This document shows positions 25,114 to 62,433 of a stretch of DNA of 64,000 bases, piece after piece. How positions within the stretch are numbered: the stretch's first letter is position 1; the number at the start of each line of letters is the position of its first letter. The translations under genes and the position numbers were made by a program. Origin of the DNA: Thelephora terrestris (lineage: Eukaryota; Basidiomycota; Agaricomycetes; Thelephorales; Thelephoraceae); the NCBI GenBank assembly GCA_015956445.1, contig WIUZ02000003.1, forward strand, positions 1,860,001-1,924,000, in the 5' to 3' direction. Below the pieces are notes generated by a model. It saw only the letters and a program-made list of their open reading frames with translations, did not search any database and was not told the DNA's origin.

Positions 25114-25276
25114 GTGTCAGGGTTGTGGGCCTGCTTACTGTTTGTGGGGCGCTAGAGGATTAGCGGAGGGGTGAGGAGTGTCGGGTCTAGTTTTGAAGGG
25201 AGTTCTGGGTGTGGAGACGAGAGGAGGAGGGATATCAAGAGAGAGAGGTGCTTCTGTTGAATACGGATGGACGGGT
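25114..25276 (-). mobile_element. LTR family C, terminal fragment
   Basis: Starts TGTCAGGGTTGTGGGCC and matches the first 160 bp of the family C copy at 37626-39945. It stops abruptly where an LTR of family B begins, so the B copy probably inserted into it or recombined with it. It is a broken relic. Confidence 0.75.
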
Positions 25277-28090
25277 TGTCAGGAACATGGTATTTTTTAA
25301 AACTTTTTATAACACGCTCTTTCGTTGAACTCTTCTTACCAATTCTTATGTTTGAATGATTCACTCTCCTTATCCTTCACACCAATCATTCGAAACACAC
25401 ACACGCACGTACTATTCCCAGCGAATCCACAACGAGCTATACAAGTGCTATCCCAATCCCATCAAAAGTCGACTCTATCTACGGCAGGCCTGAAGGTCAC
25501 CAAACGTCCATCTCGGAGATCGTAGTGCTGGCCCCTCCTCGCTAGGACCTCCCCGAACATGGCGTCACCATCTTCGGCACTCAGCTGAACGACTAGTTCA
25601 AGCCGATAGGAAGAGAGACCTTCGAGCGGACCGATCAACCTCCCAGATGTCACTGAACTCTGGAACACCTGGTCCCACATCGCCATCACCGGGTGACTGC
25701 TCGACAGCACTATCGACGTAGTCGGCAAGCGACCCTCCGTCTCCCTCGTCGGACCCCTGGGTGGGATCCTGTCTTGCGAGTCGTAGCTGGTGGCGAAGCT
25801 GGATCTCCGACTCGACCTGTCGGTAGGGACGGTGGACCCGATAGCGGAACTCTCGTCCTCCACCTCGACCAGACTGGTCACCATCCGACTCAACTGGTCG
25901 AGGATAAGGATTAGCCGATGGAGCCATGCGATGAGCAGGACGGCGTCGAGAGCGTTTGCAACGTTGCCCCTTAGTCACCGGACGTACCTCGGCGACCCTC
26001 GGAGCATCTTCGGCTCGGTCAACCTCCATGACCTCATCCTCGATCTTCACCAACTGATGGATCGGCTGCAAGACGCAGCGCCCACAGTTCTCCTTGTCGG
26101 AAGCGGCCAAGGTGGAAGCCGGACCTGGTGTCGGAACGGGAACCGCGTTCTCGATTGGAGGCGTCGCATAGGACGACGGGTTAGGCGATGGCAGTACCAC
26201 CTCGTCGGCGTACTCCAACTCGAACGGAACCTCGGCTGTCCCCTGACCAACCAACTTGGGGCCCTCCTTACAGTTGCAGGTTTTGTCCTGCAAGGACTCG
26301 ACCTGCGCTGTCAACACAGCCACCACGTTTTCGAGTTCTTCGGTCTAGAAGAAGTGTCAGCTTCCCTCATTTCGTCTTCGAGATGAGGAAAGCTACCTTT
26401 TCATCCCTCCTGGCCAACGCCCCCTTGATGTTGTTATCCCTGACCTTCAGACCGGCGATCAACTCTTGATGGTTAGCCACCATTGCCTCCAACGCCTCGT
26501 TCGTCCCCTGCTGGAAGGCCGCCAAGGTCTCCTTCAATTGAAGACCCTCTGCTGATAGACGAAGGACGTCTGCCTTCGCTTCCTTTACCTCCCGCTCCAA
26601 TCGTTCAACCTAGGCAGTCTGATTAGTCGAGAGTCATACTCGAATATTCAGACAGAAAACCTACCCGGCTTTCTCCCTCCCGAACGAGCGACCACAAGAG
26701 GCTAGTGGAAGCGGTAGCATGACGGACGGCCCGAGGAACGGTAGCTCCGTGCTCCAATAGGTCCTGATCGTAGATTCCCCTCTGAAGGGTGTACCAGAGC
26801 TCCTTCTTGATTGGATGCTCCAACTCCCCGAACCTACCCCTCATCTGGAAGGCCACCTTCTCGGCAATGATCGTACGAACCCAGAGCTCATCGTCCCAGG
26901 TCAATCCCTTCAAATGAGGCATCGTCTCCCTGAGACGTTCGGCGTCCACTTCCGCAATGACCTCCAAGATCTAGAAGCCGTTAGCTGGACATCAACGCCC
27001 AAAAGAACGTAACCTCTACCTAGAGGAAGGCGTTAGTGCTGGCACAGAAAGCTCTAAGTCTCCCCCATACCTGGTCATCCGTGGTCTAGGGAGTCCCAGC
27101 CGCACAGGCATAGGTCTTGCGAGCGGCGGCACGACGGTCGATGCGAGAAATGGTGGAGATACCATTGGCGACTTTGTAGGTATGGTTGTTGGGGAAGGAC
27201 ATGTTTTGGTAAGATGATGGGGAAGTTGTTGGTGTTGCTGATCAAGGATGGCTCCAAGAAGACGTCCTTCTTATAGCCTAGATCGGTGATCCTTCACGTG
27301 ACCTACCTCGACGAACCTCATTGGTCCGGGTCACATCAACTTCCGCCCCTGTACCATCATCGTTGGCTTACTACATCAAGCTGACACCTCGGCCCGCGGG
27401 ACGGCCTTGGAAGAACTTCGTTCCGGAAAGCCTAGAACGCGCGCGCACTAAAAATAGGTCTCAAGACCCTGATGACCCCTTTATGACATCACGAACCCCT
27501 TTTACGACCCCTCATGACTTTACGATTATGATCAACCCTGGACCCTGATCACACACGTGGACAGTCACATCACAGTCTCCTAACCGGAGGAAGGAATCGC
27601 CGTTATTCGGAGGGAGTGCCTTAGACTCCTTTTGTTTAGCCCAGCGAATGTGGAGTAGCCGTTAGCGTGAAACGCCGGCGAATCTGTAATCCCTCATGTC
27701 CCATGAGTCTAGGCCCGACCTCCTCATGTTCGGACGTACGTTGAGGTTGCCACTAGTCCGTGATGCTGTTACCGCCTACAGACAACAAGGGATGTTGAAT
27801 GTCTCTACTCCCGAATCCAGCTGGCAGAGGCCATGTAAAGGGAGATTGACACCTGGCCCTTGGGTGAGATCCCCAGGTACGAACTTTCACGACCCCATGC
27901 CCCTAATTCTTTTAGGACTAGTGTTATCTTTACCCCTATGTTTCATGAAGACATTTCTTATCTCTTATGCAATCCTTCACACGCTAGTAAGGCCCTTTGT
28001 CCTTTATTCTCCCACGTGTCACCTTTGTTCGCTTCCCTTACTTAGCGTTCTCACACTCCTTATCTCCCTTTGTTCTGGCTTGATAACGGG
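25277..28090 (-). mobile_element. LTR family B, copy ii (incomplete)
   Basis: This is an LTR of the gypsy-related family B in reverse orientation. The true end TGTCAGGAACATGG is at 25277. Its body matches copy i (31680-41588, un-nested) and copy iii (49356 onward) closely. The outer part of the LTR (about 500 bp including the TGTCAGGGCCACTC head) is missing where LTR family D begins at 28091. It lacks nested insertions, so it shows the uninterrupted arrangement and serves as the empty-site reference for foldback element 2 and the family C insertion in copy i. Confidence 0.8.
25462..27202 (-). CDS. LTR-borne coiled-coil protein gene, family B copy ii
   Basis: This gene lies wholly inside an LTR. 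It starts MSFPNNHTYKVANG at 27202, about 70 bp after a TATA-like CTATAAGAAG. Exon-like blocks follow with short intron-like gaps: a block with DDELWVRTIIAEKVAFQMRG (26950-26680), a heptad-rich block with LEREVKEAKADVLRLSAEG (26600-26390), a block with VAVLTAQVESLQDKTC (26330 on) and a 3' region rich in proline, serine and charge. At the 3' end two frames overlap: one ends at 25598, the other runs on to 25462 and contains LELVVQLSAEDGDAMFGEVL. The protein is related to the one in the LTRs of the chromovirus at 49986-61674. Function unknown; it is not gag or pol. It runs antisense to the inferred direction of the element. Confidence 0.6.
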
Positions 28091-30509
28091 TGTGATGATT
28101 TCGCCGTTTACCCTCTTTCATTTCCTTTATTTAACGACTCATCACCACTAAGTCAGTTGGTGCCTTGCCCTAAACACGGCGGTAAACTGTTTATTATGCA
28201 GTATGCCCTATGCTTAACGACTCAAAGTCCAATACGTGGAACGTGCTACTAGTCAAGATACCCCAGAAGACCCGAGGTATAATACGTGAACATGTACCGG
28301 CGGACCTTTGTACGAAGATCCCCCCTACCTGGCCCTCCGTTGCCCCTGGACGACTAGTAGATATTCAGGCTACCGACAACAAGGGATGTATTAATAAGCG
28401 TCGCGCGCTGACCTCTCGCAGAAGTCAACCGGCTTATTAATCTGACCCTTGGATTGGACTTATGAAAACCATTATGTTTTATGACTCATGGATCACGCGC
28501 AATAGACAAGATAGAAAGAAGATTCATTGGAAGCCGACAGTACAAAAGAGTTATTAATCAATATCTCTGCGGATCCTTTGTACTACTTCCAATGCCGATC
28601 TCACCAACTCCTCATTCACCCAGTTCTGCTCCCGGATCTCGTTCGGGTCTACGTCCGACAGGTCGTCGTAATCTGGAAGCTCTGTGTCAGAGTTCGGTTC
28701 GCTATCAGGAACGAACTCGGCATACGGATCGTACTCCAGAGCAGGCCATTGACGGCGACTACCCCAAGGAGTAGATACGAATCCAGGACGAGGGGTGTCC
28801 CGACGAACGACTCCCAAGTTCTGATAGAACTCGTCGCTCCCGATCTCGATAACCTCATCATCAACAGGAACCAACCTGTTCTCGTGACGGACCAACAAAC
28901 GAGCAGGTGGCGATTCAGCCCGGTTAGGGATGATCGGCGACCCGGCCCGATGCAGAACCTCCTCTCCTTCTTCTTCTTCGACTCGGACCTCCGGCTCGTT
29001 ACACCTCCTCTGGAGATCCCGGACCTCTCCGGTCAACTCGGAGATACGACGAGTAAGGCGAACCTAAAACGAATAGGGTTAGAAGACATTAAAAACCTTC
29101 AACCCCTACCCGTTACCTTATCGTCCTCCAATTCTCCGGTTTTGGTAACCAGAGCCCGAACCAAGTCCTTGAGAGTAGTCACCTCTCCCTAGAAGAAAAT
29201 GTTGGGTTAGAAAAGTCAATTATCTTCCGACCCCACATTTACCTTCAGCAAATCAATGTCGGCCCCCTGTCGGACAACACTATCCTCCTGTCCATGAATA
29301 ACTCCCTGCATGTCCTCCTTCCAGTTCTCCAAGGCCTCAATCTCCTCACGACGTCCATCGATACGCTCGTTAACATGAGCCACTTCGTCCATTAACATGG
29401 ACCCAACGTTCCCCGTATGGAGAACGCTGGCCTCCAACACGGAGTTGAAGGTTTCGTTGGCCTCAGTCACGAACTCAACACCCCTATTGAGGAGTTCGTT
29501 CGCATATGGGTTAGTCTCGATACGCGCCAACTTGCGCCGAGACACCCTACGAGCGGCCTGGAGAAAGTCCCTGAAACCTAAAAGGAGTTAGCTTGGTTTC
29601 CTAAATCGGAATGCGCAAGCAGGGCCCCCACCTAAATCAGAGAATCCCTCATTAGGGTCGGCGGTGGCGGTCCGGTCCATAACAGCTCCCAAAGTAGGAT
29701 AAGGGCGGGACGGATCACGGCGGGCATGGGAAAAGCGGTCGATGTTGTAATTGTTCTCCTGAACAGGAGAGTAGGAGGAGGAACGACGAGTGGGATTGCG
29801 AGTAGAGGCACGTGGCATGTTGGCTGTGTAACAAAGGTGGGTTTGTTGGAAGACCAGTCATCCAACCCCCTTTGGTTATATACCAAATACCACGCCCCTT
29901 CCACGACTCAGGAGTTGAGTCATCATTTCCATTGTTTACTGCGCATGACCCACATGACATCATATGCCCCTATCTTTAGTCATATGCTCCCCTTTTGCTA
30001 TTGGCTGTTAGTCAGCCATACCCACATTCCTTCCGAACATTCTCAGGATACGTCATGCTTTGTAATTGCTCTATAATGCTCTCAAATTGCTATTGGCCGC
30101 CACACTTTCGTTTATCAGCTGATAATTTGTAGCATTAGTCACCACGTAACGCACAGACCATGCAGTGCTGTGCACGGACCATGTTTGTCTGTGTTTGTAT
30201 CCATAGTGTAGTTATATGTCACTGTCACGTCACAAATCTAAGTAGTATATATACTCCGAGTAGTTTAGCCTGTACTCCTTAGATTTGTTATCATCAGACT
30301 CTCCGTGACCTCTACTGCTGTGTGCTTAGAGCAAGAGTGCCTGAAGACCCTTGTCTCCTTCTTTCTCCTCTTCTCCAATCTAGTCTGTGAAGAGACTTCC
30401 GATATCCCTGGGTTTGCAACAGGGTTATAACTGTGTGTTTGCCCCCTGCGTGTGTAAGGTTTGGATAGCAAGAGTGCTATTGAACTGTAGAGGTCGCGTC
30501 GGCCTGACA
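28091..30509 (+). mobile_element. LTR family D, copy 1
   Basis: The 2419-bp LTR runs from TGTGATGATTTCG to GGCCTGACA and matches the copy at 44072-46489 over its whole length. A TATA box for the element itself (GTATATATACTC, about 30245) lies 260 bp from the right end. The flanks (ACGGG on the left, TCATC on the right) do not match, and the two sides belong to different sequences: LTR B on the left and the FunK1 gene on the right. The copy therefore marks a recombination or deletion junction rather than a simple insertion. Confidence 0.85.
28554..29818 (-). CDS. LTR-borne coiled-coil protein gene, family D copy 1
   Basis: This gene lies inside the U3 part of LTR D and points away from the element promoter. 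It starts MPRASTRNPTRRSSS at 29818, about 60 bp after a TATATA box at 29877-29882. The first block has MDRTATADPNEGF. A second block (29545-29240) has ETNPYANELLNRGVEFVTE and GRREEIEALENWKEDMQGV, a clear coiled coil; a short block near 29180 has TLKDLVRALVTKTGELED. The last block (29036-28554) has SELTGEVRDLQRRCNEPEV, IGSDEFYQNLGVV and an acidic end with DYDDLSDVDPNE. Short intron-like gaps separate the blocks. The same organisation is kept at 44527-45788. No known domain; function unknown. Confidence 0.6.
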
Positions 30510-31679
30510 TCATCTGGAGAGCCTCCGAGGTATTGGTGGTTTTTTAGGTCGGCCACATACGAAGTCTTGAGGCTAAAGCTTTTCATGAATTGGAATTGGA
30601 GGGGTTGTAACCATGCACGAAAGTCCTTGAAGCACAGGGACAACTCAATGGGGCTTGAGGACGAAAAGAAGGCAAACTTCTGGCTTCCAAGTATGTCATA
30701 GTCCTGTTGCTTAAACCAGCCCTGATACGGACGGTAACCCCCTCGCATGACCATCTGCAATGGTCCTGTTGTGGACTCGACTTTCTCATTAGCCAACTCG
30801 TGGCGCCTGCACATCAGCAACATGACATAGAAGAGCGATTCCAGGTCATGTCAATACAGGTGAGTGGCGCTCGCTCCCATCAGCAACTCATGAGCCATAT
30901 AGGGAGGCGTTCCGGTCTGCTGCTGTGGCGTTTTGCCACAGTTGGTTTTAAGGTGCTCCATCCACGACAAAAGGTCATAGTCGGTAAGGACCCCATAGAC
31001 TCTCCGACTTGGTTTCCCTTCTGCGCTCGGTTCCTCGCTAATACGATACATGATGTTGTTTGGGCTAGGGTCGCGATGAAGGATCCCAGGGTGATTGTGG
31101 AGCCAACGGTGAACTAGGAGGGTGTGAGGGGATGGTAGATGAAAAGCAAAGGGGGCACGCACCACATGCAACGTCAACAAAAACCTGACCAATTTCATCA
31201 GAAAAGGTGGCACAAAGTTATTGCAGTTATTTAAGGTTATCCGAAGTTATTTGAGGTTATTCCTTACCTAGTTTTTTGACCTACATCAAACAATCACGAA
31301 ATAACCGAGGAAAAGGTGAATAAGGTGAAATAATCAACAAATAATGTCACTGCCACCTATTCTGATGTTCCTTCACATCCCCGAGCGACTTGAGAGGGTG
31401 CAGCTCTTCCTGAATGATAACCCAGAGGACACACTTCTCATACACAAAATTGCCACCCCCACCCACAAGTGTGGCGCTCTCAAACAGATTCGCAACCGAC
31501 TCAAAAGTTGAGTCCTTGCCGAAATTGATGTCGCCTGCCCACAAGACCTTGGGGAGGTGCTTGGTGGCCCATGTCAGTCCCTCCTTCTCTGCCTCCTCAG
31601 CAGCCTTGTTCAGGAAGTTTTTCTTGCAAAAATGCCTGACGCTCGGCCAGCTGACCTTGACAACTATCTTTTTCCCCTG
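30510..31679 (-). pseudogene. FunK1 piece 5: kinase catalytic core and C-terminus
   Basis: Carries the N-lobe block (31679-31380: KIVVKVSWPSVRHF, LPKVLWAGD, ELHPLKSLGD), an intron-like gap, then LHRDPSPNNIMYR, GVLTDYDLLSWM, QQTGTPPYMAHELL and the C-lobe block (30823-30510) with GPLQMVMRGGYRPYQGW. It ends at the LTR D boundary after GGSPDD. Confidence 0.85.
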
Positions 31680-32003
31680 TGTCAGGGCCACTCTACCCCA
31701 ACAACTACCAGTGCACTGAGCCGACTCCGCAGAGTACTCACTAGTCCAACTAGCTTGTGAGAGAACGATCATGTCTCTATTCTTCCGGTAGGTTGTCCGA
31801 GGTCACTACAAGTCAGGTCGAAATCCTAAAGAGAAACCCAACCTGAACCGTACTTCGTTCGGTTTAACCAACAAGGGTTTATCACTACAACAGGATTGTG
31901 TCACAAACGCGTGACATAGTAGCCAAGATCACACAAGTAATTCAAGACATTGGTCTTATTCGCAGTAGTAATAATACAAAGGCAACTAACAAGAACTACA
32001 AGT

Positions 32004-32907
32004 TTAGACAAGGACGAAAGGATCTACGTCACAAGTACATTCCTGAGCAAACGGGCAGCGATGAGCGAAGTGGTGAGGGTTATGAACACTCTCAGGGCAG
32101 TACGAATACGCTCGTGTCACCGGATCTTGCCAACACTCCCTACACCCCAACACATTATGATATAGACTATCATGCATCTCCCGCTTCACATCCGACAAGG
32201 CTGCGCTCACTAAGGCGAACCCATAGCGGTCTTGGAGACCCGCCACTTCCACCTTCAACTTCATCTGAACTTGACGTGACTTGTCGGAGGGACGACAGCG
32301 TTGACCAGAACGAGTCATCGGACTCTTGCGGTTCTTCTTCTTCTGGGACCTCTCCACCATCTGACGAACTGGGGCAGGACTCCAGGGAGGGGATGGAGGG
32401 AGAGGAACGCCCTGATCCTGGCGGTGGCGAAGGGACGACTGGGGACTTGCAAGGGGGGTCGGTGCAATAAGCCCCATGGCACTGGTGTCCGAAATATCGG
32501 AAGAGAGATGCCTGGAAAGGTCCCCAATGTTCCAAAGCAAAGTGAGAGAAGTCATCATTCAAACTATTCATGATGACGTACATGAGGTCCACACGCTTCT
32601 CCAACTTGGCAATTCTATCCTCCCTCTCCCTCTCCATGGCGTCCAACAAAAGGACGGCCCCAGGATGTTCAGCTCGAACCCGAGGTCCAGAAAGCCTGGG
32701 ATCTTCGTACCCAGCTTGTTCCCAGAACTCGGCAGGAGCATTATGAGCGGTGAGGAAATTGATGGCAACTTGGTTGTCATGAGCAATGTTGGCGGGGGAG
32801 TCATACAAATGTTGCTCCATGTCGTAGGGAGCATCCGTCTCGAAGGACGGAGTGAAGGGGGTGGCGGCAGCACTGAGCACGGCGTTGTTAGCAACGAAGG
32901 CAGACAT
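32004..32907 (-). CDS. LTR-borne gene A, family C copy 1 (two overlapping frames)
   Basis: Starts MSAFVANNAVLSAAATPF at 32907, about 90 bp after a GTATTTAAG box. The first frame (32907-32170) encodes an acidic protein with EQHLYDSPANIAHDN, FWEQAGYEDPRL, a coiled-coil stretch REREDRIAKLEKRVDLMYVI and CHGAYCTDPPC. A second frame (32558-32004) overlaps it by nearly 400 bases and continues past its stop; its end is cysteine-rich (GCRECWQDPVTRAYSYCPE, FAHRCPFAQECTCDVDP). Both frames are retained in the copy at 38931-39840. No known family is recognised. Part of an LTR element; function unknown. Confidence 0.55.
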
Positions 32908-33567
32908 AGTAGTAATGAATATTTGAGAGAGGAGAGTAGTGCTGGTGATTATGGGTGGAAAAGAGGCGATGGAGGGAACGATCATTAATCCCCCTGACTT
33001 AAATACATCCTGACTCAAGGAAAGAACCGGAAAGAGAAAACAATAACCCATTATCCATTAAAGTCCTAATTAGGATAAACAAACCCTCAGCCCCGATCGC
33101 GATCCCATCAAACCCTGAGAAATCCCCCTCGATCATGAGAAATCCCCACCACGCTTCTATTACTACCGTTGATCCAGAGAAATCCCCATCGATCATGGGA
33201 AATCCCCACCACGCTTCTATTACTACCATGAAACACGAGAAATCCCCGAATGCTCCCATCGACTCGCGCCTCTACTGTTCCCGTACTAGTAAATTACCAT
33301 CTGTCGTTCTAAGTCCTCTCATTCTGACTCATCTACCCTACCCTAAATTACGCACAGACCATGTTGATCCCTGTTTGACTCGTTGTAGAATAATGACTCC
33401 TGTAGAGGATTGGGTATATAAGGAAGAGTGTTCGCTCCTTCTTTTCCCCATTCTCAATCTCTTCTGTACTCCTCTACCCACAACTTGAATAAACAAAGTA
33501 AGCTGAGAAATTCTTCTCACGTCCTACCTTATCTGACTCATTCAAGCAGGAATTCTCCTGCTAGTGT
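32908..33567. promoter_or_regulatory. Bidirectional promoter region with minisatellite, LTR C copy 1
   Basis: Lies between divergent genes A and B. A minus-strand GTATTTAAG box (about 32998-33006) serves gene A and a plus-strand GTATATAAGG box (33414-33423) serves gene B and probably the element RNA. Between them, 33115-33250 holds about 2.2 copies of a 60-bp unit with the core GAGAAATCCCC and CCACGCTTCTATTACTACC. The same layout recurs at 38270-38930. Confidence 0.6.
33115..33250. repeat. Minisatellite, about 60-bp unit
   Basis: Tandem units start at about 33114, 33175 and 33236 with GAGAAATCCCC followed by CGATCATG. The related copy at 38578-38735 has its own slightly different number and spacing of units, so it changes independently. 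Confidence 0.75.
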
Positions 33568-34191
33568 ATGTTCAGTCCCCCAAACCCTTTCCCCTCTACC
33601 AGTCCAGTCCAACGACCAAGCGTTCCTGACGCCAGGAGATCTATCTGGGAGTATAAACTCATTAGAAGTCTCCAAGTAAACCGAACAGCCGGTTTACTCA
33701 CCCATTTCCCTTACTACCGACCCTTTTCAGCTCTCGACGCCGGAGTCATCACTCCTCCTTTTCTCCTAGGAGCAGATCACCAATTCCTCTGGAATTCAGA
33801 TCTTACGGAAAGTGTCCTTGCAACTGTTTACTTCAGTATCAGCCCGGCCTTTTACTTCCCCTCCCCACGTATTCATCTTACTACTAACATCCACACCCAC
33901 TCTCCTGCGATCATCGTTCTCTGGTGGGAAGTTCCAACTGAATTACCTTACTCAGTCATAGAATATCTCGTCAACTTCGAATGTCTTAGCGACCAAGACT
34001 TTGAACCCTTTGTGCAACACCTCAATCGGTTCTGCCAAGACTACCACTCACCCGTCCACCCATATCAGACAGAGTCACCTCTCTCCCTTGACATTCCTCC
34101 TCTCCTCGTCTCTACGCCCGGAACCCCCTTCAAAGTCAGACCCGACACCCCGCACCTGTCCGCTAATCCTCTAGCGCCCCACAAACAGTAA
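33568..34191 (+). CDS. LTR-borne gene B, family C copy 1
   Basis: A single uninterrupted frame of 207 codons beginning MFSPPNPFPSTSPV, ending LAPHKQ only 20 bp before the LTR end. The protein has a hydrophobic and aromatic central part (LLTHFPYYRPF, ESVLATVYFSISPAFYFPSP, PAIIVLWWE) and an acidic segment (LSDQDFEPFVQ), with a proline-rich tail. It follows a TATATAAG box and lies where the leader (R-U5) of the element RNA would be. The second copy (37646-38269) also keeps the full 207-codon frame, with roughly 90 percent identity. No family is recognised. Confidence 0.6.
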   Translation: MFSPPNPFPSTSPVQRPSVPDARRSIWEYKLIRSLQVNRTAGLLTHFPYYRPFSALDAGVITPPFLLGADHQFLWNSDLTESVLATVYFSISPAFYFPSPRIHLTTNIHTHSPAIIVLWWEVPTELPYSVIEYLVNFECLSDQDFEPFVQHLNRFCQDYHSPVHPYQTESPLSLDIPPLLVSTPGTPFKVRPDTPHLSANPLAPHKQ

Positions 34192-35296
34192 GCAGGCCTA
34201 CAACCCTGACAGATTGATGACTCCACCAGGTGATCGACTGGACGCTCGAGATGTTCTAATATGAACGCTGGGGTTCTATAGTTATGAGGCGCAGTTGACG
34301 CGCAGAGCGGGAGGGAGAGCAGATGGGGGATGTCTTGGATCAAACAAGAAACTCAGACTTGTCCTTAACTGCAACTGGGCTGAGAAGGGCAGAGGATTTC
34401 CTGAGGTAACAAAACTAAGGTACTACGATACAGCCACAGTTGCTACTTATACTAAAGGAGTGCCCATGACATCAATACCCTAATATACCCTTATCAAGTC
34501 TGAACAAAGGGAGATAAGGAGTGTGAGAACGCTAAGTAAGGGAAGCGAACAAATATGACGCGTGGGAAGATAAAGGACAAAGGGCCTTACTAGCGTGTGA
34601 AGGATTGCATAAAAGATAACAATAGTCTGCATGAAACATAGGGGTAAAGATAACACTAGTCCTAAAAGAAAGAGGGGCATGGGGTCATTAAAGTTCGTAC
34701 CTGGGGATCACACCCAAGGGTCAGGTGGAAACCTCTCATTGCTTCGTGCAATTTTTGAGCGGCTCTGAGATAAGGGACCATGCATCATCCCTTGTTGTCT
34801 GTAGGCGGTAACAGCACCATGGACTAGTGGCAACCTCAACGTACGTCCAAACATGAGGAGGTCAGGCCTAGACTCATGGGACATGAGGGATTACAGATTC
34901 GCCGGTGTTTCACGCTAACGGCTACTTCCACATTCGCTGGGCTAAACAAAAGGAGCCTAAGGCACTCCCAATGATCAACAGCGATTCCTTCCTTCCGTTA
35001 GGAAGACTGTGATGTGACTGTCCACGTGTGTGATCAGGGTCCAGGGTTGGTCGTTATCGTGATGTCATTAATGAGTCATCAGGGTCGTAAAGGGGGTTTA
35101 TCAAGGTCATGAGACCTATTTTTAGTGCGCACGCATTCTAGGCGTTCCGGAATGAAGTTCTTCCAAGGCCGTCCTGTGGGCCGAGGTGTCAGCTTGATGT
35201 AGTAAGCCAATGATGATGGTACAGGGGCGGAAGTTGATGTGACCCGGACCAATGAGGTTCGTCGAGGTAGGTCACGTGAAGGATCACCAATCTAGG

Positions 35297-35304: not shown

Positions 35305-35369
35305 AGGACGTCTTCTTGGAGCCATCCTTGATCAGCAACACCAGCAACTTCCCCATCATTTTACCAAAC

Positions 35370-52916: not shown

Positions 52917-52920
52917 GGAT

Positions 52921-52929
52921 CCTCCTTCT
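52921..52929 (-). other. Polypurine tract of chromovirus A
   Basis: On the minus strand AGAAGGAGG lies four bases before the 3' LTR, immediately after the pol stop codon, the expected place for the plus-strand primer. Confidence 0.7.
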
Positions 52930-55900
52930 AGATTGGCGCGTCTCGAGTCAATGGTCCAGTAGGCCAACTTGAGACTTCTGTGAGGGGACGTAAGGGGACG
53001 AATTCCATATCGATAGCGTTGATCTTTTTCTTCCCTCGTCTTCGTCGCTTGGTAAGCTGTTGACCGGATTTGGAACCGTCGGCTAGTCGTCGCGGGGCGC
53101 TCGGGTGTTCCTGGTAGAACTCCGAAACCATGTCCTGAGCGTTCTCGAGATCGACTTCGTCTTGCCACGAGTTTTCCGAATCTGGCCAGCCCAACCACTT
53201 GACCAAGAACTTGAGTTTCTTCCCAATGAACTTTGCGTCGAGAACCTTTTCGACTTCCCATTCTGGTTCTCCTTCGACAATGTCTGGAGGTGGACTGGGA
53301 TGATTGGGGTTCTTTGGGTCTTCGTGATAGGCGTCAAGCTTTGAGACGTGGAAAACGGGGTGAACATTCTTCCATTGTTGAGGTAACTCGAGTCGGTATG
53401 CGTGTGTTCCGACTTTGGCGAGGATCTTGAAGGGGCCAGATCTTCGCTCGGCGAGTTTCCGGGAAGGACGATTGATTGAAAGATCAGCGTTATCGAGCAG
53501 GACCTTCTGACCTATTTCGAACTGAGGGGTAGGACCTCGGTGTTTGTCATAGAAGCGCTTCATGTCGACTGCGGCTTGTTCGAGAGCTTTGGCGGTATCC
53601 TTCTGTACTTGGTGAAGGTGTTCCACAAAGTCTTCGACCGATTCGATGGGAGAGTCAATCCGGGGTAGAGAACCAATGTGAGGGTGGTAGCCGTAATTCG
53701 CATAGAAGGGGGTGGTCTTGAGTGACTTGTGATAACGATTGTTCAGTGCGAACTCGATCACAGGTAACCAGTCGACCCAGTCGTCCTGATGAAAGGAGAT
53801 GACTGTGCGTAAGGCTTGTTCGACTTCTTGGTTGGTTCTCTCGGATTGTCCATCGGTCTGCGGGTGGTAAGCCGTAGAAAGAGCAGTCTCGATTTGAAGG
53901 TTGCGGTTGGCTTCTTTGGCAAAGCGCGATGCGTACTGAGGTCCTCGATCAGAGATGATCTTGTCCGAAATTCCATGGAGTCTCCAGACGTTCTGAAGGT
54001 AAAGGTGGTACAGGCCTTCGGAATCCAGGGTAGTGGTGGTGGGAGCTACGTGAACGATCTTGCCACGTTTATCCGTAACGGTCCAAATTGCGTCATAGCC
54101 TTTGCAGGGGGGCAAGCCGGTGATGAAGTCGGTGGTGATAACTCCCCAGGGTCGTGGAGTAGGATCAATCGGCTTTAATTCTCCGTGAGGCTTCCTACGA
54201 TGGATTTTGGTCCGTTGACAAATATCGCAGTTACGTATCCACTCATCCACATCGTTGTAGAGACGCGGCCAGTAATAATCTCGTCGTACGGCCTGGAGTG
54301 TTGCGTCTCGTCCTGGATGTCCTGCTTCAGGTTCGGAATGGAGGGCGCGGAAGACAGTTTGTCGAAGGTGTTCCGGAATGTAGATCTTTCCTCGATAGGT
54401 CCATAGATCATGTGCTTTTCCCCAACCATCAGGGATCTTTGCAGTCTCTCCTTCCTTAGTGGTATTAAAGGAAAGGATGAGAGGGTCCAATGCTTGAGCG
54501 TTGTACAGCTCTGTGAGTATGGTGGACTTGACTATTCGTAAAGCTGCGATGCGATGGTCGGTGGTGATCTTTTCCGGGGGGATCATGACGATTTCCGGTT
54601 TGGGTACGTCTTCCCGTTTGTGGTCCATGCGTCGTGAGAGGTGGTCAGGGACTGAAGATTGTTTTCCGGGACGATAGACTAGCTTGTAGTCGAACTCCGA
54701 TAGTAGATGATACCATCGGGTTTGTCGGTCGTCCAGTTGTTGCTTGTCCATAAAATAAGTTAAATTCTTGTGGTCCGTAAGAATCATAAAGGGGGTCTTG
54801 GTTCCAGACAGCCAGTGTCGGAATTCCTTGAGGGCGTTAATGATTGCGAGTAATTCGCGGTCGTGAACGGCATAACGTGTTTCTGCATCATGGAATCCTT
54901 TCGATAGGCAACCCACTGGACGCCATTTGCCATCGTCTTGTAGCTGAGAAAGCATCGCTCCCCAGGCGTACGCCGAAGCGTCGGTCTCTAGGAGGAACGG
55001 CTTTTCTTGGTCGGGGTGAGCAAGGCAAACGTCGTTAAGCAGGGTGTCCTTGAGTTTCTGATAACTCTGTTGTTGGGTAGGGGTCCAGGACCAGAGTACG
55101 TCTTTTCGTAAAAGGTCGTTAAGGGGTCTTGCGACGTTAGAGAAATCGCGGATAAAACGTCGATAGTAGTTCATCATTCCCAAATAGGAACGAAGTTCGG
55201 AGACGGTGGTGGGGATCGGCCAATCGCGAATACCAGAGAGTTTGACGGGGTCGGGACGGATACCGTCACCGGAGATTATGTGACCAAGGTAAGGGATTTC
55301 CGATTGAAGAAATTCGCACTTTTCGGCTTTTAGCGACAAGTGGTGTTCTCGGAATACCTTTAAGATCTCTTTGACGACTTCGATGTGAAAGTCTTCGTCC
55401 GAGAGTTTTCCGGTGGGGTCAGATCCAGTTCCGATTCCGACGTCGTCAATGAACGTGCTGGTGTCGCCTCGACGAATGTAGACAATGAAGATGGAATTCA
55501 TCATTGCCTGGAAGGTAGCCGGCGCATTGGTAAGACCAAAGGTCATGACCAGTGATTCGTAGAGTCCTCGGTTGGTAATGAACGCGGTTTTCCATTCGTC
55601 ACCCTTCTTCATACGGATGTTGTAGTATCCCGACCGAACGTCCATGGCGGAGAAGTATTTGCAGCCTTTCCATTTCTGGATAAGCTCGTCTATTCTCGGC
55701 AGGGGGTAGACGTTCTTGACGGTGATGTCGTTCAACTTGCGATAGTCGATGACCATCCGTTTCTTTCCGTCTTTCTTGTTGATGAAGAAGACCGGAGAGG
55801 CAAGGGGCGAATCAGAAGGTCTGATGCGTCCGTTCTTGAGGTTCTCGTCGAGGAATACGTCGAGTTCCTTTTGTTCGTCGTAGGAGAGGGGGTAGATTCG

Positions 55901-56764
55901 GGGTTTCCACTTCTTGGTTTCCCAATCGTCTTTGAGCTTGATCTCGTGATCGTATTCACGGTGTGGAGGGAGAGCCTGATAATTGGATTCTTCGAATACG
56001 TCTACGAACTCTTGAAAGGGGCCGGCTCGGATGTCTTCAACAGTTAGAACTTTCTTTTTCTTGAAGTCTTCCATAGCCCAGGTTGTAGCGTTGTGGCCTT
56101 TCGAGTGAGGATCGTGATAGACGTGTCGGATGTACTCGGAGACAGCAGGTTCTGCCGTGATGGAAGCTCGATCTAGTTGTTCCTGGAAACGTTGGAGTGG
56201 GGATACACCGTTTCTGCAGCTGGAAGGACAACGGGTGAATTCCAACTTTCCTGAACGCCAGTCGATAAGAGGATTGTGGGAGCGAAGCCAGGTCATTCCA
56301 ACGATCAAGGGTTTGGTACCGATGTCAGTGACGAAGTACCATTCCTGTGAGGTGTGTCCTTGGATCTTGGAGGTAAGTCTAGCCTCATGGGTGATAGCGG
56401 AAGCGTTAGGCGAATCATCGGCGTTAAAAGCATACACCGGGTAGTTCAGCTTGCGAGTGGGGATAGAGTTGTCTTCAACGAACGATTTGGAAATGTAGAG
56501 GGATTGAGCGCCTGAGTCGAGGAGCGCTTCGGTGATGAACTTGTGACCACGAGTATCTGTGATCTCGAGTTTCAACGTAGGAAAATCCACGGTGTGTCGT
56601 GACGGTGTTCTGTAGAGGGCTTTGGAGGCAATCGCAGCGAGTTGTGTGGAGAGGGGAAAACATGATTGCAATTTCTTTTCCATAGCGGATACTAGTACAT
56701 CGGGAGTGGGAAAAGAATCATATAACGCGCGCGATTGTATAGATAAAGTGGAGGGGGGACTCAT
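52928..56764 (-). CDS. pol: Chromovirus pol polyprotein
   Basis: A frame of 1278 codons that looks whole. Domains in order: aspartic protease (LDSGAQSLYIS, Asp at about residue 83), reverse transcriptase (YPLPRIDELI, FSAMDVRSGYYNI, catalytic FIDD near residue 440), RNase H (LLETDASAYAWGAMLSQ), integrase with the HHCC zinc module (ALHSEPEAGHPGRD...CDICQRTK) and catalytic core (ITTDFITGLPP, AYHPQTDGQSERTNQ). A C-terminal chromodomain (EWEVEKVLDAKFIGKKLKF, VKWLGW) closes it and is expected to guide insertion into heterochromatin. Pol begins just after gag, in another frame. Confidence 0.95.
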   Translation of the reverse strand: MSPPSTLSIQSRALYDSFPTPDVLVSAMEKKLQSCFPLSTQLAAIASKALYRTPSRHTVDFPTLKLEITDTRGHKFITEALLDSGAQSLYISKSFVEDNSIPTRKLNYPVYAFNADDSPNASAITHEARLTSKIQGHTSQEWYFVTDIGTKPLIVGMTWLRSHNPLIDWRSGKLEFTRCPSSCRNGVSPLQRFQEQLDRASITAEPAVSEYIRHVYHDPHSKGHNATTWAMEDFKKKKVLTVEDIRAGPFQEFVDVFEESNYQALPPHREYDHEIKLKDDWETKKWKPRIYPLSYDEQKELDVFLDENLKNGRIRPSDSPLASPVFFINKKDGKKRMVIDYRKLNDITVKNVYPLPRIDELIQKWKGCKYFSAMDVRSGYYNIRMKKGDEWKTAFITNRGLYESLVMTFGLTNAPATFQAMMNSIFIVYIRRGDTSTFIDDVGIGTGSDPTGKLSDEDFHIEVVKEILKVFREHHLSLKAEKCEFLQSEIPYLGHIISGDGIRPDPVKLSGIRDWPIPTTVSELRSYLGMMNYYRRFIRDFSNVARPLNDLLRKDVLWSWTPTQQQSYQKLKDTLLNDVCLAHPDQEKPFLLETDASAYAWGAMLSQLQDDGKWRPVGCLSKGFHDAETRYAVHDRELLAIINALKEFRHWLSGTKTPFMILTDHKNLTYFMDKQQLDDRQTRWYHLLSEFDYKLVYRPGKQSSVPDHLSRRMDHKREDVPKPEIVMIPPEKITTDHRIAALRIVKSTILTELYNAQALDPLILSFNTTKEGETAKIPDGWGKAHDLWTYRGKIYIPEHLRQTVFRALHSEPEAGHPGRDATLQAVRRDYYWPRLYNDVDEWIRNCDICQRTKIHRRKPHGELKPIDPTPRPWGVITTDFITGLPPCKGYDAIWTVTDKRGKIVHVAPTTTTLDSEGLYHLYLQNVWRLHGISDKIISDRGPQYASRFAKEANRNLQIETALSTAYHPQTDGQSERTNQEVEQALRTVISFHQDDWVDWLPVIEFALNNRYHKSLKTTPFYANYGYHPHIGSLPRIDSPIESVEDFVEHLHQVQKDTAKALEQAAVDMKRFYDKHRGPTPQFEIGQKVLLDNADLSINRPSRKLAERRSGPFKILAKVGTHAYRLELPQQWKNVHPVFHVSKLDAYHEDPKNPNHPSPPPDIVEGEPEWEVEKVLDAKFIGKKLKFLVKWLGWPDSENSWQDEVDLENAQDMVSEFYQEHPSAPRRLADGSKSGQQLTKRRRRGKKKINAIDMEFVPLRPLTEVSSWPTGPLTRDAPI

Positions 56765-56790
56765 CGGGGCCTCTGTGACGACAAGTCCTT

Positions 56791-58449
56791 TTAAAAATCC
56801 TGTTCTTCGACGGGGGTGTCGAAGGGTCCTTCTTCAGCGAGGTACGTGCTGTAAGGATCTTCTTCTTCGTCGACTTGTGAGATGGGGGCTTCTTCTTCTT
56901 CCTGATCCTCCTCCTGGGCTTCGACATCTCCTACTTCAGCCGCCTCGAACCTTTCGACCAGTTGAGCGATATGGTGCTCGGAAATCTGGGCGAGGGGCGT
57001 GGTGCAGGCGTTCTTGAAGTGGCCGGGTTGACCGCAGCGATAACAGACAGATCTGTTGGCAGAGTCTGGACGCTGGTATCCGGTCTTTCCTGGCTTGGAG
57101 GAATCCTTGCCTTGGGAGGGTTTGAACTGTCCTTTCTCTCGTGGCTTCGAGGTCTGCTGAGGACGTTGCGGACGAGAGTAGCTTGGGCCTGGTGCTCCGA
57201 CTTTCTGAGGGGCAGGACGACCTTTCCTGTTGAACGTGTGTTTTATGTGGGTGGACTGCACCGCACTAATGTCCATGGGTTCACCGTAGTGAACCTGGTC
57301 ATTCTGAGGAGCCGCACGTCGAGGAGTGTATTGGAAGCTTTGTCCTCGGTTAAGATTGTCCCTGGAGGTCCCATGGTTGAACGTCTTCATCTGCCGCTCC
57401 GACATGATGTTTTGGTAATGCGAATTGGCGCGGGTGCACCAATCGAGATAGGTGGTCGGAATTGGGAGCTGTCGACAGATGAGGGCTTTCAAGTAGGGGT
57501 TGGTAGCCGCCTTGAGGTACATGAAAGCTTGAGCCTGCTGGGTGCCCGATTCGCGTGTGAGTCGATCGAACTCGGCTTGGAAGGAGGGCCATGGCATCTT
57601 CCCTTGTTGAAGCTGGGTAAGCTGTACGAAGTAATTCTGCTTCTTTTCGGGGACGCCAAAGTGTTCGTCGAATGCTGCAGCGAACAAGGACCAGTCGTCG
57701 AAGTAGTAGTCGTTGTCTCTCATACTGGTGACTGCTCCAGCGACTTGTTGAGCCCATTGAGATTCTGGCCATCCGTTGATCAAGGAACAGGCCGTAAGGA
57801 TCCGGGTTTTGGCTGCCTTCATCGATTCCGGCTTCTGAGCGAAGTAGGTTTCGAGGGATTGGATGAAGGGATCGGCATGGTTGGCTCTACCGTTGAAAGG
57901 GTCTGGTAGTTTAATCGCCTTGATGTCCTTGCCGGTGCCAGGGTATTCCTTGAAGTTCGTGGGGACGCCCAGTCGTGCCGTAGTGATAGGATTTGGTACA
58001 GGAGCGGGTGGCGCACGTCCTTGTTGAAGCGCAGTAAGGAGGTTTTGCCACTGGTCGGGAGCGGGAGGGTTAGCCGCATTTAGTTGTTGTTCTAGCCCTT
58101 CGATGCGTTGGCGGGCTTGCTCGGCTACGTCCGCATGGCCTATTAGTCCTGCCTCGAGTTGTCTCCTGTGTCTGGTTTCTTCTGCCAGGGTCTGCCCAAG
58201 TAAGCCTAGGAGGGTTACCGACTGTACGGGGTCTCGGAGGTCGTATCGTTGGCCTTGACTATCTTCGAACTCGTAAGGTTGCAGTTCTGGGCGTTCTGGT
58301 CGATCCATGGCAGGTGGTAAGGAGGTGGTACGAACGAGAGGGGTAGGAGCTCTTGACGTTTGTTGGGAGGAAGGAAGTCCGGTGCGTAATCGCCTCGAAG
58401 TGGGAGGTTGCCCGGTTTGATAGGGGTTTTCCCACGGTCTGTCTGACAC
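56791..58449 (-). CDS. gag: Chromovirus gag
   Basis: A frame of 552 codons that looks whole. It has a polar N-terminus, a helical stretch (EETRHRRQLEAGLIG), the capsid-like retrotransposon gag region (PFIQSLETYFAQKPESM, YYFDDWSLFAAAFDEHFG, MPWPSFQAEFDRLT) and a CCHC zinc knuckle CYRCGQPGHFKNAC near residue 470. An acidic tail follows. The RNA-binding knuckle and capsid together package the element RNA. Confidence 0.93.
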   Translation of the reverse strand: MSDRPWENPYQTGQPPTSRRLRTGLPSSQQTSRAPTPLVRTTSLPPAMDRPERPELQPYEFEDSQGQRYDLRDPVQSVTLLGLLGQTLAEETRHRRQLEAGLIGHADVAEQARQRIEGLEQQLNAANPPAPDQWQNLLTALQQGRAPPAPVPNPITTARLGVPTNFKEYPGTGKDIKAIKLPDPFNGRANHADPFIQSLETYFAQKPESMKAAKTRILTACSLINGWPESQWAQQVAGAVTSMRDNDYYFDDWSLFAAAFDEHFGVPEKKQNYFVQLTQLQQGKMPWPSFQAEFDRLTRESGTQQAQAFMYLKAATNPYLKALICRQLPIPTTYLDWCTRANSHYQNIMSERQMKTFNHGTSRDNLNRGQSFQYTPRRAAPQNDQVHYGEPMDISAVQSTHIKHTFNRKGRPAPQKVGAPGPSYSRPQRPQQTSKPREKGQFKPSQGKDSSKPGKTGYQRPDSANRSVCYRCGQPGHFKNACTTPLAQISEHHIAQLVERFEAAEVGDVEAQEEDQEEEEAPISQVDEEEDPYSTYLAEEGPFDTPVEEQDF

Positions 58450-58730
58450 GTTGGAAGAACAGGGGGTGAGAGGGTTGTAAAGGAGGTGGGAGCCGAATTT
58501 AGAAAAAGACGAGTGCTCCGATAGTTAGGAAGAGAAACGTTGTGGAAAGAGGGGGGGGGGTTGAGAAGGTTGTTGCCCTAGATCAGTTCTAGTGGACTGT
58601 TGACGTGTTCGATTCCTCTCGAGCTATTCCTAGCAGCGATCTGCTTCTTCTGCTACCAGTCGTTAGTCGTCGACCGATTTATCTGCAGTGAGCGTGATCC
58701 AGTAGTTTGGTGAACAGGGTACCGGCTGGT

Positions 58731-58741
58731 ATCTTTGATAT
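58731..58741 (-). promoter_or_regulatory. Primer-binding site, self-primer type
   Basis: On the element (minus) strand the 5' LTR is followed by TT and then ATATCAAAGAT. No TGG typical of tRNA priming is present. The 11 bases are the exact reverse complement of ATCTTTGATAT at 59188-59178 in the same LTR, which lies where the RNA should start. This is the arrangement known from Tf1/sushi-type elements, where the RNA's own 5' end primes reverse transcription. Confidence 0.7.
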
Positions 58742-59177
58742 AATGTCAGGGCCACTCTTCGCCCTTCAGGTGCCAGTGCTGTTGGTGAGTCGCAACTCCA
58801 ACCAACAAGAAACAATGGGGCAAAGGGGGAACGACTTCCCTATATCCACCCAAAGTCTACGTGGTCCAAAACGCGATGGACGAGCGTTCTCCGGTAGGTT
58901 GTCCGAATTCACAGCAGGAGTGCCGAGCCTCTATCAGGTAAATCCCTATTGTCTTCTGAGGGCAGATACAAGAGCCCGAGGATGGCGCCTCAAACTGATG
59001 ACTTGATCCAAAGAGCAGTGCGGAACTCGATGTCGTGTCCGAGCTCGCTTCAAACACCGGTTAAGGATCAAGACTGAGTGAGAGAGGAGAGCGAACGGTT
59101 CAAGGAGTTACTCGATAAGCTCTTCAGTGGCCTACAGCAAATACACCGATGCTGCAAGGAGAAGAGGACTTCCCGAG

Positions 59178-59223
59178 ATATCAAAGATGGGGAGTCCTCA
59201 GCTACTCTACTGGTACTTATATA
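59178..59223 (-). promoter_or_regulatory. Chromovirus A promoter and predicted RNA 5' end
   Basis: On the minus strand TATATAAG (59223-59216) is followed 28 bases later by ATCTTTGATAT (59188-59178). That is the normal TATA-to-start spacing, and the 11-mer pairs with the primer-binding site. The same pair occurs in the 3' LTR (11-mer at 50420-50430). Confidence 0.65.
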
Positions 59224-59672
59224 GGAGAGTGGCCGGGACATAGATAACCCTATCTAATAGTAACTCGGAGCAAAGAAGGGCCGAGAGTAAGCACGAACAG
59301 TAAGCGGCCCGGAGTATAGAATAGAATGATAAAGGAATGACTAATGGGTCAGGGTTCGTGAGAAAACATGAAAGGGGTCATGACGTCGTGTGGGAAAGGG
59401 ATGACAAAGGATAATATCACATGTAAGGGTGAACCAATGAGGGGACGACGCGTCAGCTCGTCCGATCGGGACAACGAAGGACCGAGTGGGGCCTGAATGT
59501 CGAAGGCGAATGTATGAGAAGTCTGGGCCGGTGAAACGATGGGCCGAGCCAATGGCGAATAGGACGCGGGCGCTGTCGAGGGTCGAATAAAGCGTAGTGC
59601 GAACCGGCCATTGGATCCATCGAACTCCCTTCTTCCAAATCAACAATCCCACCAACCAACTACTCATCCATT

Positions 59673-61423
59673 ATGCCCATGATCTCCGATCGTGTCTTCC
59701 GTGCTGAGAATAGTACTGCCACCATTGAGTCCGCGGATCCTCGATCCGTGCAGAATAAGGGCTACTTCTTGCCGAACGCCAACGTGGCGTACCCTAGTTA
59801 CCGAGAGGCGCGTTGTCACGCGTCGCCGTTGTTGGCAACCACTGACAACGCTTTCATAGATCTTCGCGGTTGCCGATAAGGTGGATGCTCGACAACTGGA
59901 GGCAACGATAGCCAAGCCTCCCAGCTATTTGACTATGGATGACGAGTTGTGGTACCACAACTTGATCGACCATAAGCTGCAGGAGTCGATGCGAGGGGTC
60001 ACGTTCAACATCGAGTTACGGATGCCATATGAGACTCCTGTGGCTTCGTCGCTGTGGGGACTCCTGCGAATGGGAATCTATGACTTGGGGAACGGGGAAG
60101 GAAGGTGGCCTGGAGCGACTCGCTCCCAACACTACACAGCAGCCGTTGGTCACCGCCTTTGGTTCCTCCTGAGGACGGAACAGAAAGCGGTGAGTCGGTC
60201 TGTGCATCCCGCTTGTGGGATAACACTGACGGACTTATAGAATGAGCGACTGAAGCGTGAGGTGAAGGAAGCGAAGGACGACGCCCGTAGGATGTACTCG
60301 GAGGCGTTGGACATGAAGAAGACGCTTTTGCTGATGAACGACACGCTCCGCGTGACGTTTGAGAGCGAGATGCTGGCGTTGCGCGAAGAACACAATCGGT
60401 TGGTCGAGTCCTTGAAGGAACGGGACGACACGATTCAACGAGATCTGATTGAGGTCGACCGACGACTCAACCGTCATCGAAGGGCCTTGAACGAGCTCGA
60501 CACCAAGGTCGGTGCGACTTCTCCTGGTCCTTATCCAAGAGAGCTCACGCCACTTCTAGGTTGACACGTTGGACGACGCCTTGCCGTTGCTGGGTGCTCG
60601 GGTCGAATCGATGAGTGAGCGGTTGTGCCACTGCCGTACTCGTTCGGTGGCTGCGGTTCGCGACGAGTCCGGGGACGAGTCGATTCCGGATCGGATGGCT
60701 TCTCCCATAGGTGGGATGTCGGTTGACATATTTGGCTTGTCCACTGACATCTCTTCTTAGCTTCCGATGGGTCGTACCGCACACCTGCGCACACTGATGG
60801 CGGGGAGGAGGTCGTTCGCGAGACGTCTGAGGAGACGGCCGTGAATCCGGTTAGCAGTTCTCCCGAGTTGGAGTACGCGGGGGAGAACGAAGTGGCTGTT
60901 CCGATTCCGCCTCCGTCGATCTCGCCGGTGCGTGGGCAACGTTCTATCCGTGCTCGTCGTTGGGTTCCTTATCGCGGGGCACTTCGTCCAGCGCACCGCA
61001 TGCGTCCCAGTAATCCCAACGTTGTCCGCCAGGGTGGAGACATTGAATCCACCGTCTTATTCCGATGCGACGATGCTACAGTGTCGCGTGGATCGCGGCG
61101 AGCTGATTCCGGTGGAGTCCGTCGACGTGAACGGCTTAACCGACCTTACGCTCTTGTCGGTCCAGCGTGCAGCGGAGGCCGTTCGCCTGGTGGCTCAACT
61201 GACCGAGAGAGTGGAGGGTTGGTCAGTCCAGAGGACTCTGGATCAGACTATGGTCGATTCAGCGAGGAACCGCCTTCGCGCCGAGGTTCAGTTGGCCGTC
61301 GCTCATCGTCTGGAGGAAGCTCGGGTCGTCGAGATGGTCGACGAGGAAGTCGACGAGAATGCCTCGGAGGGGACGGAGGAGGAGGTTGCCAGTGCTGAGG
61401 AGTACTGGCAGACCAGGTCTTGA
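59673..61423 (+). CDS. LTR-borne coiled-coil protein gene, family A (5' LTR)
   Basis: Identical in layout to 50915-52665; a single amino-acid difference (EEAQVV versus EEARVV) was noticed in the 3' frame. It is antisense to gag-pol and lies within U3, upstream of the element promoter and divergent from it. Having one gene in each LTR gives each full-length element two copies, and leaves one behind in every solo LTR. Confidence 0.6.
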
Positions 61424-62433
61424 CGACCAGGGTTTGTACGCCTTAGTCCTCCTTCATAGAGTCTGGGCGGATTCAACTCCGTCGGTTTGGTAGTCTCATG
61501 TCTTCGCCGCGCGCCTTGTGTAATATCATCAGTGTCCTTGTCTGTGTTTCTTGATGACGTGTGAGTCGTGATAAAGGAAACGATAAGATAAGAAAGGGGT
61601 ATAGGTAAGGAAAGTGGGCGAAAGTTGGGTGTGAAAAACGGTTCAAAAAGGGAATAAAAGTCAGCACGCTGACAATGTCCGCATGAAACATAGGGGTAAA
61701 GATAACACTAGTCCTAAAAGAAAGAGGGGCATGGGGTCATGAAAGTTTGTACCTGGGGATCACACCCAAGGGTCAGGTGGAAACCTCTCATTGCTTCGTG
61801 CAATTTTCGAGCGGCTCCGAGATAAGAGACCATACAGCATCCCTTGTTGTCTATATGCGGTAACAGCATCACGGACTAGTGGCAACCTCACGTAGGTCCG
61901 AGCATGAGGAGGTCGGGCCTAGACTCATGGGACATGAGGGATTACAGATTCGCCGGCGTTTCATGCTAACGGCTACTCCACATTCGCTTTGGCTAACCAA
62001 AAAGGAGTCTAAGGCACTCCTTCCGAACAGCGGCGATTCCTTCCTCCGGTTAGGAGACTGTGATGTGACTGTCCACGTGTGTGATCAGGGTCCAGGGTTG
62101 ATCGTAATCGTAAAGTCATGGGGGGGGGTCGTAAAAGGGGTTCGTGATGTCATAAAGGGGTCATCAGGGTCTTGAGACCTATTTTTAGTGCGCGCGCGTT
62201 CTAGGCGTTCCGGAACGAAGTTCTTCCAAGGCCGTCCTGTGGGCCGAGGTGTCAGCTTGATGTAGTAAGCTGACGATGATGGTACAGGGGCGGAAGTTGA
62301 TGTGACCCAGACCAATGAGGTTCGTCGAGGTAGGTCACGTGAAGGATCACCGATCTAGGCTATAAGAAGGACGTCTTCTTGGAGCCTTCCTTGATCAGCA
62401 ACACCAGCAACTTCCCCATCATCTTACCAAAAC

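Follow-up and report, generated by a model that had tools for sequence, protein, structure and literature searches.

Two families of Ty3/gypsy chromovirus in the basidiomycete Thelephora terrestris, A and B, carry a conserved gene within the U3 region of their long terminal repeats (LTRs), where it lies antisense to gag-pol, diverges from the element promoter and outlasts the formation of solo LTRs. We describe these elements from a window of 64,000 nucleotides (assembly GCA_015956445.1, contig WIUZ02000003.1, positions 1,860,001 to 1,924,000; window coordinates are counted from its first letter), together with two further gene-bearing families, C and D, and a search of 40.6 Mb of the genome in 60 contigs. 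An earlier note, made from the sequence of the window alone, had proposed that all four families share one architecture, with a U3 gene divergent from the element promoter. This holds for A and B, for which full-length copies exist, and is plausible for D; C differs in detail, having two divergent genes.

By self-comparison of the window, we delimited four families of long terminal-repeat units of 2.3-3.3 kb, nested in one another. The unit lengths are 2931 bp for A, ~3.3 kb (~3303 bp) for B, ~2.31 kb for C and ~2.42 kb for D. The region from 24000 to 63500 is an insertion cluster, with A lying within a B LTR and with B, C, D and palindrome units mutually nested.

Structure and direction of elements A and B

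Element A is complete. It comprises two LTRs, a target-site duplication (TSD), and gag and pol on the minus strand, with the following features:

49986-52916, minus strand: A 3' LTR, 2931 bp, TGTCAG...CTGACA, 99.93% identical to 58744-61674; element TSD GACAT
58744-61674, minus strand: A 5' LTR, 2931 bp, partner of 49986-52916
56791-58449, minus strand: A gag, 552 amino acids (aa), with a CCHC zinc knuckle; Retrotrans_gag match slightly below the curated cut-off
52928-56764, minus strand: A pol, 1278 aa, with protease, reverse transcriptase (RT), RNase H, integrase, SH3_Tf2-1 and chromodomain
50915-52665, plus strand: A U3 gene in the 3' LTR, antisense to the element, 456 aa, seven predicted exons (50915-51025, 51102-51431, 51483-51749, 51802-51952, 52003-52295, 52345-52539, 52642-52665)
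59673-61423, plus strand: A U3 gene in the 5' LTR, coordinates transferred from the 3' LTR
50460-50465, minus strand: A element TATA box CTATATAAG, at LTR position 2452 of 2931, with a self-complementary core, kept in 28 of 29 copies

A domain search found in both A and B a gag with CCHC and the order protease, RT, RNase H, integrase, with a chromodomain. The B LTR has the ends TGTCAGG...CCTGACA, and its terminal ...GAGTGGCCCTGACA is identical to that of A; paired B LTRs with RT inside are present in the genome. The 2813-bp block seen in B1 is shorter than the complete LTR: B2 and B3 match a full-length B copy for ~490 bp past this block, so that the true LTR is ~3.3 kb, ~490 nt longer. The window holds three B LTRs:

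25277-28089, plus strand: B1, family B LTR, first 2813 of ~3303 bp, abutting D1; element direction plus
25462-27202, minus strand: B1 U3 gene, homologue of the A gene, 472 aa, six predicted exons (27202-27106, 27019-27009, 26961-26665, 26609-26397, 26344-25851, 25768-25462)
31677-40574, minus strand: B2, B LTR in pieces (40574-39947, 36595-34212, 31898-31677), interrupted at two points, one holding C1 and the other C2 with a palindromic repeat
49356-63521, minus strand: B3, B LTR in pieces (63521-61674, 49986-49356), interrupted by element A

The direction of the elements was read from RT enclosed by pairs of LTRs on the same strand. We compared 37 A, 38 B, 40 C and 44 D LTR places with 120 RT places, with 7, 4 and 5 partial rows excluded. 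Same-strand pairs enclosed an RT in both A pairs and in four of five B pairs, the fifth (contig C14, 13 kb apart) enclosing none. With the LTR oriented as in the window, both A pairs have their RT on the minus strand and the U3 gene on the plus strand; the strand of the gene was confirmed directly at the copy on contig C5. In all four RT-holding B pairs, the RT shares the strand of the B1-oriented LTR and the gene occupies the opposite one, as was confirmed directly at copies on contigs C11, C4 and C56; two further cases of the same arrangement were recognized by eye on contig C12. The direction put forward earlier for A, minus with its gene plus, therefore stands, and B, for which the note had proposed the layout by homology, is a plus element with a minus gene; in neither B nor A does gag-pol run with the LTR gene. 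Each element carries this gene in both of its LTRs. An RT at C12:1331701-1332210, in the same class of score and frame length as those of the two A elements, possibly marks a third full-length A.

Coding evidence, copies and promoters

We aligned 29 copies of A, 8 of B (6 complete rows), 8 of C and 8 of D, and tested their frames for mostly synonymous change. Genes were modelled from this signal with stops disallowed and GT-AG introns permitted, and 40 column-shuffles per family served as the control. Two B rows, L004 (1695 bases) and L008 (1638 bases), are partial, and B intactness was counted on the six complete rows; one B element supplied both L005 and L006, its two identical LTRs, and one A element supplied L015 and L016.

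The claim that every family holds coding sequence is well supported, with model scores far above the shuffle maxima. The antisense model of A comprises seven predicted exons and 456 aa, with a score of 222.6 (shuffle maximum 4.9), and that of B six predicted exons and 472 aa, with a score of 123.0 (3.5). C yielded two models, a single plus-strand exon of 207 aa scoring 140.2 and a two-exon minus-strand gene of 262 aa scoring 74.3 (5.2), and D one model of four predicted exons and 347 aa, scoring 96.3 (9.9). Scores on the other strand were 52.1 for A, 12.0 for B and 8.8 for D; the A and B shadows exceed the shuffles, yet fall far below the real strand.

Across all frames, the median ratio of non-synonymous to synonymous change (omega, dN/dS) was 0.92-1.05. 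In the modelled genes, omega for changes common to several copies was 0.06 in A, 0.08 in B, 0.07 in C plus, 0.14 in C minus and 0.16 in D, while for single-copy changes it was 0.21, 0.09, 0.17, 0.27 and 0.29, respectively. The gene is intact in all 29 A copies, 25 of these being solo LTRs, and in 5 of the 6 complete B rows; the 207-aa and 262-aa genes of C are intact in 8/8 and 7/8 copies and the D gene in 6/8. The U3 gene of A and B is coding and conserved.

For A, 30 loci were examined: an exact 5-bp TSD marks 25 as solo LTRs, two full-length elements account for four more, and L032 has no TSD. The 99-aa exon of B is open in 150/150 scored places (598 first-look candidates), and the 207-aa protein of C is stop-free in 140/150 (414 candidates). 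The start motif of C occurs at 201 places (at most two mismatches) and the end motif of D at 217 (at most three), with no match to reversed control patterns; individual places were listed for the first ~100 of these 201 C and 217 D matches.

In A and B, the element TATA box is situated ~450-480 nt from the LTR end and is directed towards gag-pol; the gene begins behind it and runs the opposite way. At the position matching the A box, B has GTATAAG in L040, B2 and B3. On the gene side, an AATAAA-type box with one mismatch to TATAWA precedes the ATG of A by 87 nt in 29/29 copies, and a TATAAG precedes that of B by 73 nt in all six rows reaching that far.

The A protein is homologous to that of B, with an hhalign probability of 98.8 (E 4.9e-17) and 36% identity across 228 columns, and antisense tblastx matches between the two families are mostly collinear, with one of six pieces out of order. 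The A product is coiled-coil-like, with an acidic/proline-rich stretch. As had been suspected, the genes of C and D are not recognisably related to that of A and B: in profile comparison, the D protein and both C proteins matched neither A/B nor each other. Neither C protein has a match in Pfam.

Families C and D

C units bear two genes, of 207 and 262 aa, that diverge from a central region, so that, whatever the direction of the element, its strand carries one of them. Two single units are present in the window:

31899-34211, plus strand (unit orientation): C1, single C unit, TSD GATTG from the flanks
33568-34191, plus strand: C1 gene 2, single exon, 207 aa, with TATATA 152 nt upstream of the ATG in the reference copy
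32004-32907, minus strand: C1 gene 1, 262 aa with a Cys/His-rich end, predicted exons 32907-32440 and 32324-32004, TATA-like box ~100 nt upstream of the ATG
37626-39945, minus strand: C2, single C unit, TSD AAGGG, with gene 2 at 37646-38269 (minus) and gene 1 exons at 38931-39404 and 39520-39840 (plus), both intact

The box of the plus-strand gene, 152 nt before the ATG, is exact in 8/8 copies. Ahead of the minus-strand gene, the reference copy has a TATATA at 100 nt from the ATG, a box that is exact in 1/8 copies and present in 8/8 when one mismatch is allowed. The earlier note had placed a C gene opposite the end-proximal TATA, and the 262-aa gene does lie on the minus strand, but the same TATA precedes the 207-aa open reading frame (ORF) and is therefore more than an element promoter.

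The two D units of the window and their features are as follows:

28091-30509, no strand assigned: D1, single D unit, adjoining B1 directly; a TSD was looked for and none seen
28555-29818, minus strand: D gene in D1, predicted exons 29818-29632, 29577-29303, 29188-29117 and 29063-28555, broken in D1
29875-29883, minus strand: D1 gene TATA GTATATAAC, 8/8 copies
30246-30253, no strand assigned: palindromic TATATATA near the end of D1, 8/8 aligned copies
44072-46489, no strand assigned: D2, single D unit, TSD ATTGT; gene exons 45788-45602, 45549-45275, 45160-45089 and 45033-44527, with a stop in this copy

TATA boxes had been proposed near 30245 and 46225, and TATATATA is found there, at 30246-30253 and 46226-46233, near the unit end. 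This motif is palindromic and so gives no direction by itself. The box of the D gene lies 66 nt before the ATG and is exact in 8/8 copies. With both boxes conserved, one of them palindromic, a layout shared with A and B is plausible for D.

Units of both C and D have TG...CA-type ends with a 5-bp TSD, in 8/8 C copies (C1, C2 and six others) and in 8/10 D copies checked, the two without being D1 and L053. We infer that C and D units are LTRs; the directions assigned to their elements are likewise putative.

Interpretation and alternatives

We propose that A and B have gene-bearing LTRs whose antisense U3 gene acts as a regulator in trans, and that C and D are of the same build with unrelated cargo, a proposal to which, taken whole, we give an even chance. 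On this view, the LTRs of A and B reach ~3 kb because their U3 accommodates an entire gene on the other strand. This gene is probably transcribed from its own promoter and spliced as modelled, and transcription would proceed from solo LTRs too, so that old insertions would leave working gene copies. The product, with its conserved stretch, coiled-coil-like stretch and acidic proline-rich part, would act in trans on element expression, copy number or host silencing; by analogy, its likeliest role is that of a trans-acting regulator of the element, like HBZ of human T-cell leukemia virus (HTLV) or the antisense ORFs of the plant elements Grande and Retand, though placed inside the LTR. C and D would be LTRs of the same kind, C with a divergent gene pair.

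The usual view of solo LTRs is that they are dead remnants of promoters. Should many of them hold an intact, promoter-bearing gene, together they would be an active family of genes with possible control over the spread of the element, whose regulator would persist even when the element is lost by recombination. More tentatively, gene-bearing LTRs may represent a recurring strategy, in which a trans-acting gene and its promoter are placed within the repeat, recombination between LTRs, normally fatal to an element, leaves a lasting expressed gene copy, and several unrelated cargoes have been acquired in one genome; in its boldest version, C and D would now move as LTR-only units.

Several observations weigh against the proposal of trans-acting regulators in LTRs of a common build. 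The regulator role rests on analogy. Pfam matches of the A, B and D proteins are weak, many of coiled-coil type and all below curated cut-offs; a profile search of the PDB with the A/B exon-2 stretch and the 207-aa C protein returned nothing up to E 1; and structure models of the same two are poor (mean predicted local distance difference test scores, pLDDT, of 46.8 and 36.6). The element and gene TATA boxes expected by the earlier note are conserved in A and B, but the gene box of A, being AATAAA-like, is imperfect as a TATA. Copies were picked by best match, which biases all copy sets towards well-preserved ones; the B gene is broken in 1/6 complete rows, the D gene in 2/8 copies, these being both D copies of the window, and 10/150 scored C places contain stops. 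Finally, the search for full-length B, C and D elements that the note had called for was successful for B, but revealed none for C or D in the part examined, with no RT within 3 C or 4 D same-strand pairs (40 C and 44 D places).

A possible, if somewhat doubtful, alternative is that the LTR genes encode accessory replication proteins, for assembly, nuclear import or cDNA stability, and not regulators, their conservation stemming solely from element fitness and the solo copies being intact because they are young. If active lineages are under selection, purifying selection is expected to be stronger on shared than on singleton changes, as is seen in A (0.06 versus 0.21), in both C genes and in D, and the exact TSDs at 25/30 A loci suggest recent insertion. 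In B, however, singleton changes (0.09) hardly differ in this respect from shared ones (0.08), and accessory proteins give no account of the position of the gene in the LTR, its doubling in each element or its survival in solo copies.

C and D are most simply seen as solo LTRs from families in which full-length elements have disappeared or become scarce in this genome. Copies of each are 5-16% divergent from one another, with most genes and target duplications still intact, suggesting lineages that were active until recently and have no full-length copy left in the part examined. In samples of 372-400 bases, same-strand identities were 43.8-92.1% for C (10 comparisons) and 85.4-97.8% for D (10), none reaching 98%, whereas the two A pairs are 99.93% and 100% identical. 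Insertion within a sampled stretch may account for the lowest C values; the D samples come from a conserved end stretch in which 96-98% is usual, and are compatible with an older D pair.

Candidates for full-length C and D elements were considered and rejected. A D pair on contig C56 (95.2% identical) and a C pair on contig C23 (87.2%) are units with their own TSDs inserted into a giant element, E, whose ORF extends into them. The direction of C cannot be taken from a C-like unit upstream of E on contig C5, since the TGTCGGAC end at which E itself starts lies within that unit, and E was hence inserted into it. One D unit with an RT at 10 kb distance (C23:2702267) sits among nested D and C units. 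A small internal region was considered for three same-strand C pairs with ~3.3-kb spacing, but the 250 bases past each upstream unit are mutually unrelated, and two of these three samples are D or C sequence. Nor was a copia-type RT (PF07727, 99 places) seen as a partner of C or D in a partial comparison by eye.

E itself is a further giant element type (L041, L039; C23:1055508-1064228, C56:1774372-1780276). It has a very long gag-protease ORF of ~1900 aa (954 + 835 aa in one copy and a minimum of 1909 aa in a second) with no RT inside, and at many E loci a weak RVT_1 place was noticed by eye several kb downstream on the same strand.

We consider it unlikely that C and D are gene-bearing mobile units in their own right, with TGTCA...TGACA-like termini and 5-bp duplications, perhaps mobilised by A/B-type integrases. 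Such units would fit the duplications that directly flank 8/8 C and 8/10 D copies checked, same-strand pairs that enclose no RT and stay below 98% identity in all 20 comparisons, the unrelated sequence past the upstream unit of the closely spaced C pairs, and the large share of stop-free C places. A and B, however, look alike to C and D save for a few surviving full-length copies, and old LTR families elsewhere are often known from solo LTRs alone. The coverage extends to a subset of the motif places (201 for C, 217 for D), and the samples would also accommodate older D pairs.

That the LTR genes have been turned into useful host genes under host selection is highly improbable: dN/dS is low and intact copies are very many, but spread of the elements explains the numerous scattered copies with target duplications better than a host function does, and the 150 best B-exon places, to which the search for a host orthologue was limited, are all close to B (93-100%).

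Relation to known systems

Among plant LTR elements, maize Grande (gene23), rice RIRE2 and Retand (TRP28) are described as carrying a conserved protein gene antisense to gag-pol; an own promoter is reported for gene23, and the plant antisense ORFs, of unassigned function, are suspected to be regulatory (PMC7264820; PMC11963269). The A/B gene is likewise conserved and antisense, with a suggested regulatory role. In the plant elements, the ORF is internal, between pol and the 3' LTR, whereas the A/B gene lies inside the LTR, and so is found twice per element and in solo LTRs. It further differs in its predicted introns and in having no match to the TRP28 domain in Pfam up to E 10.

HTLV has an antisense promoter within its 3' LTR (PMC7264820), and HBZ of HTLV-1 is nuclear (PMC11963269). 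The A/B gene resembles HBZ in its predicted antisense LTR promoter and its putative role as a regulator. HBZ has a leucine zipper and is encoded mostly outside the LTR; the A/B gene lies wholly inside the LTR, and its product has no match to the bZIP domain in Pfam. The superantigen ORF sag of mouse mammary tumor virus (MMTV) also lies within the LTR U3, but is sense-oriented and encodes an unrelated protein. Fungal chromoviruses of the Tf2/Tcn type share the gag-pol domain order of A and B, with SH3_Tf2-1 and chromodomain; Tf LTRs measure a few hundred bases, in contrast to the gene-bearing ~3-kb LTRs described here.

The word 'antisense' is absent from the main text of a survey of fungal LTR elements (PMC3248453). 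In the open-access literature, we found no title or abstract describing such LTR genes; subscription papers are mostly outside that scope, and absence from print is thus unproved. If our proposal is true, A and B would offer a tractable fungal case of antisense LTR-encoded control, so far known mainly from HTLV and, with function unassigned, from plant elements.

Other repeats

Palindromes of ~0.8-1 kb, belonging to one repeat family and with arms 94-98% complementary, occur at window 23898-24736, 36591-37551 and 40572-41587, and D2 is located inside one such palindrome. Elsewhere, a palindrome of ~1.2 kb breaks up the ORF of E at L041:6800-8024. On contig C59, the stretches at ~630-642 kb and 671-683 kb, 40.8 kb apart, contain C, B and E fragments at equal spacing, which suggests a segmental duplication. 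In the first part of the window, an inverted repeat of ~2.95 kb with 95% identity (1-2939 and 14440-17373) surrounds a WD40/F-box coding sequence at 10608-13341.

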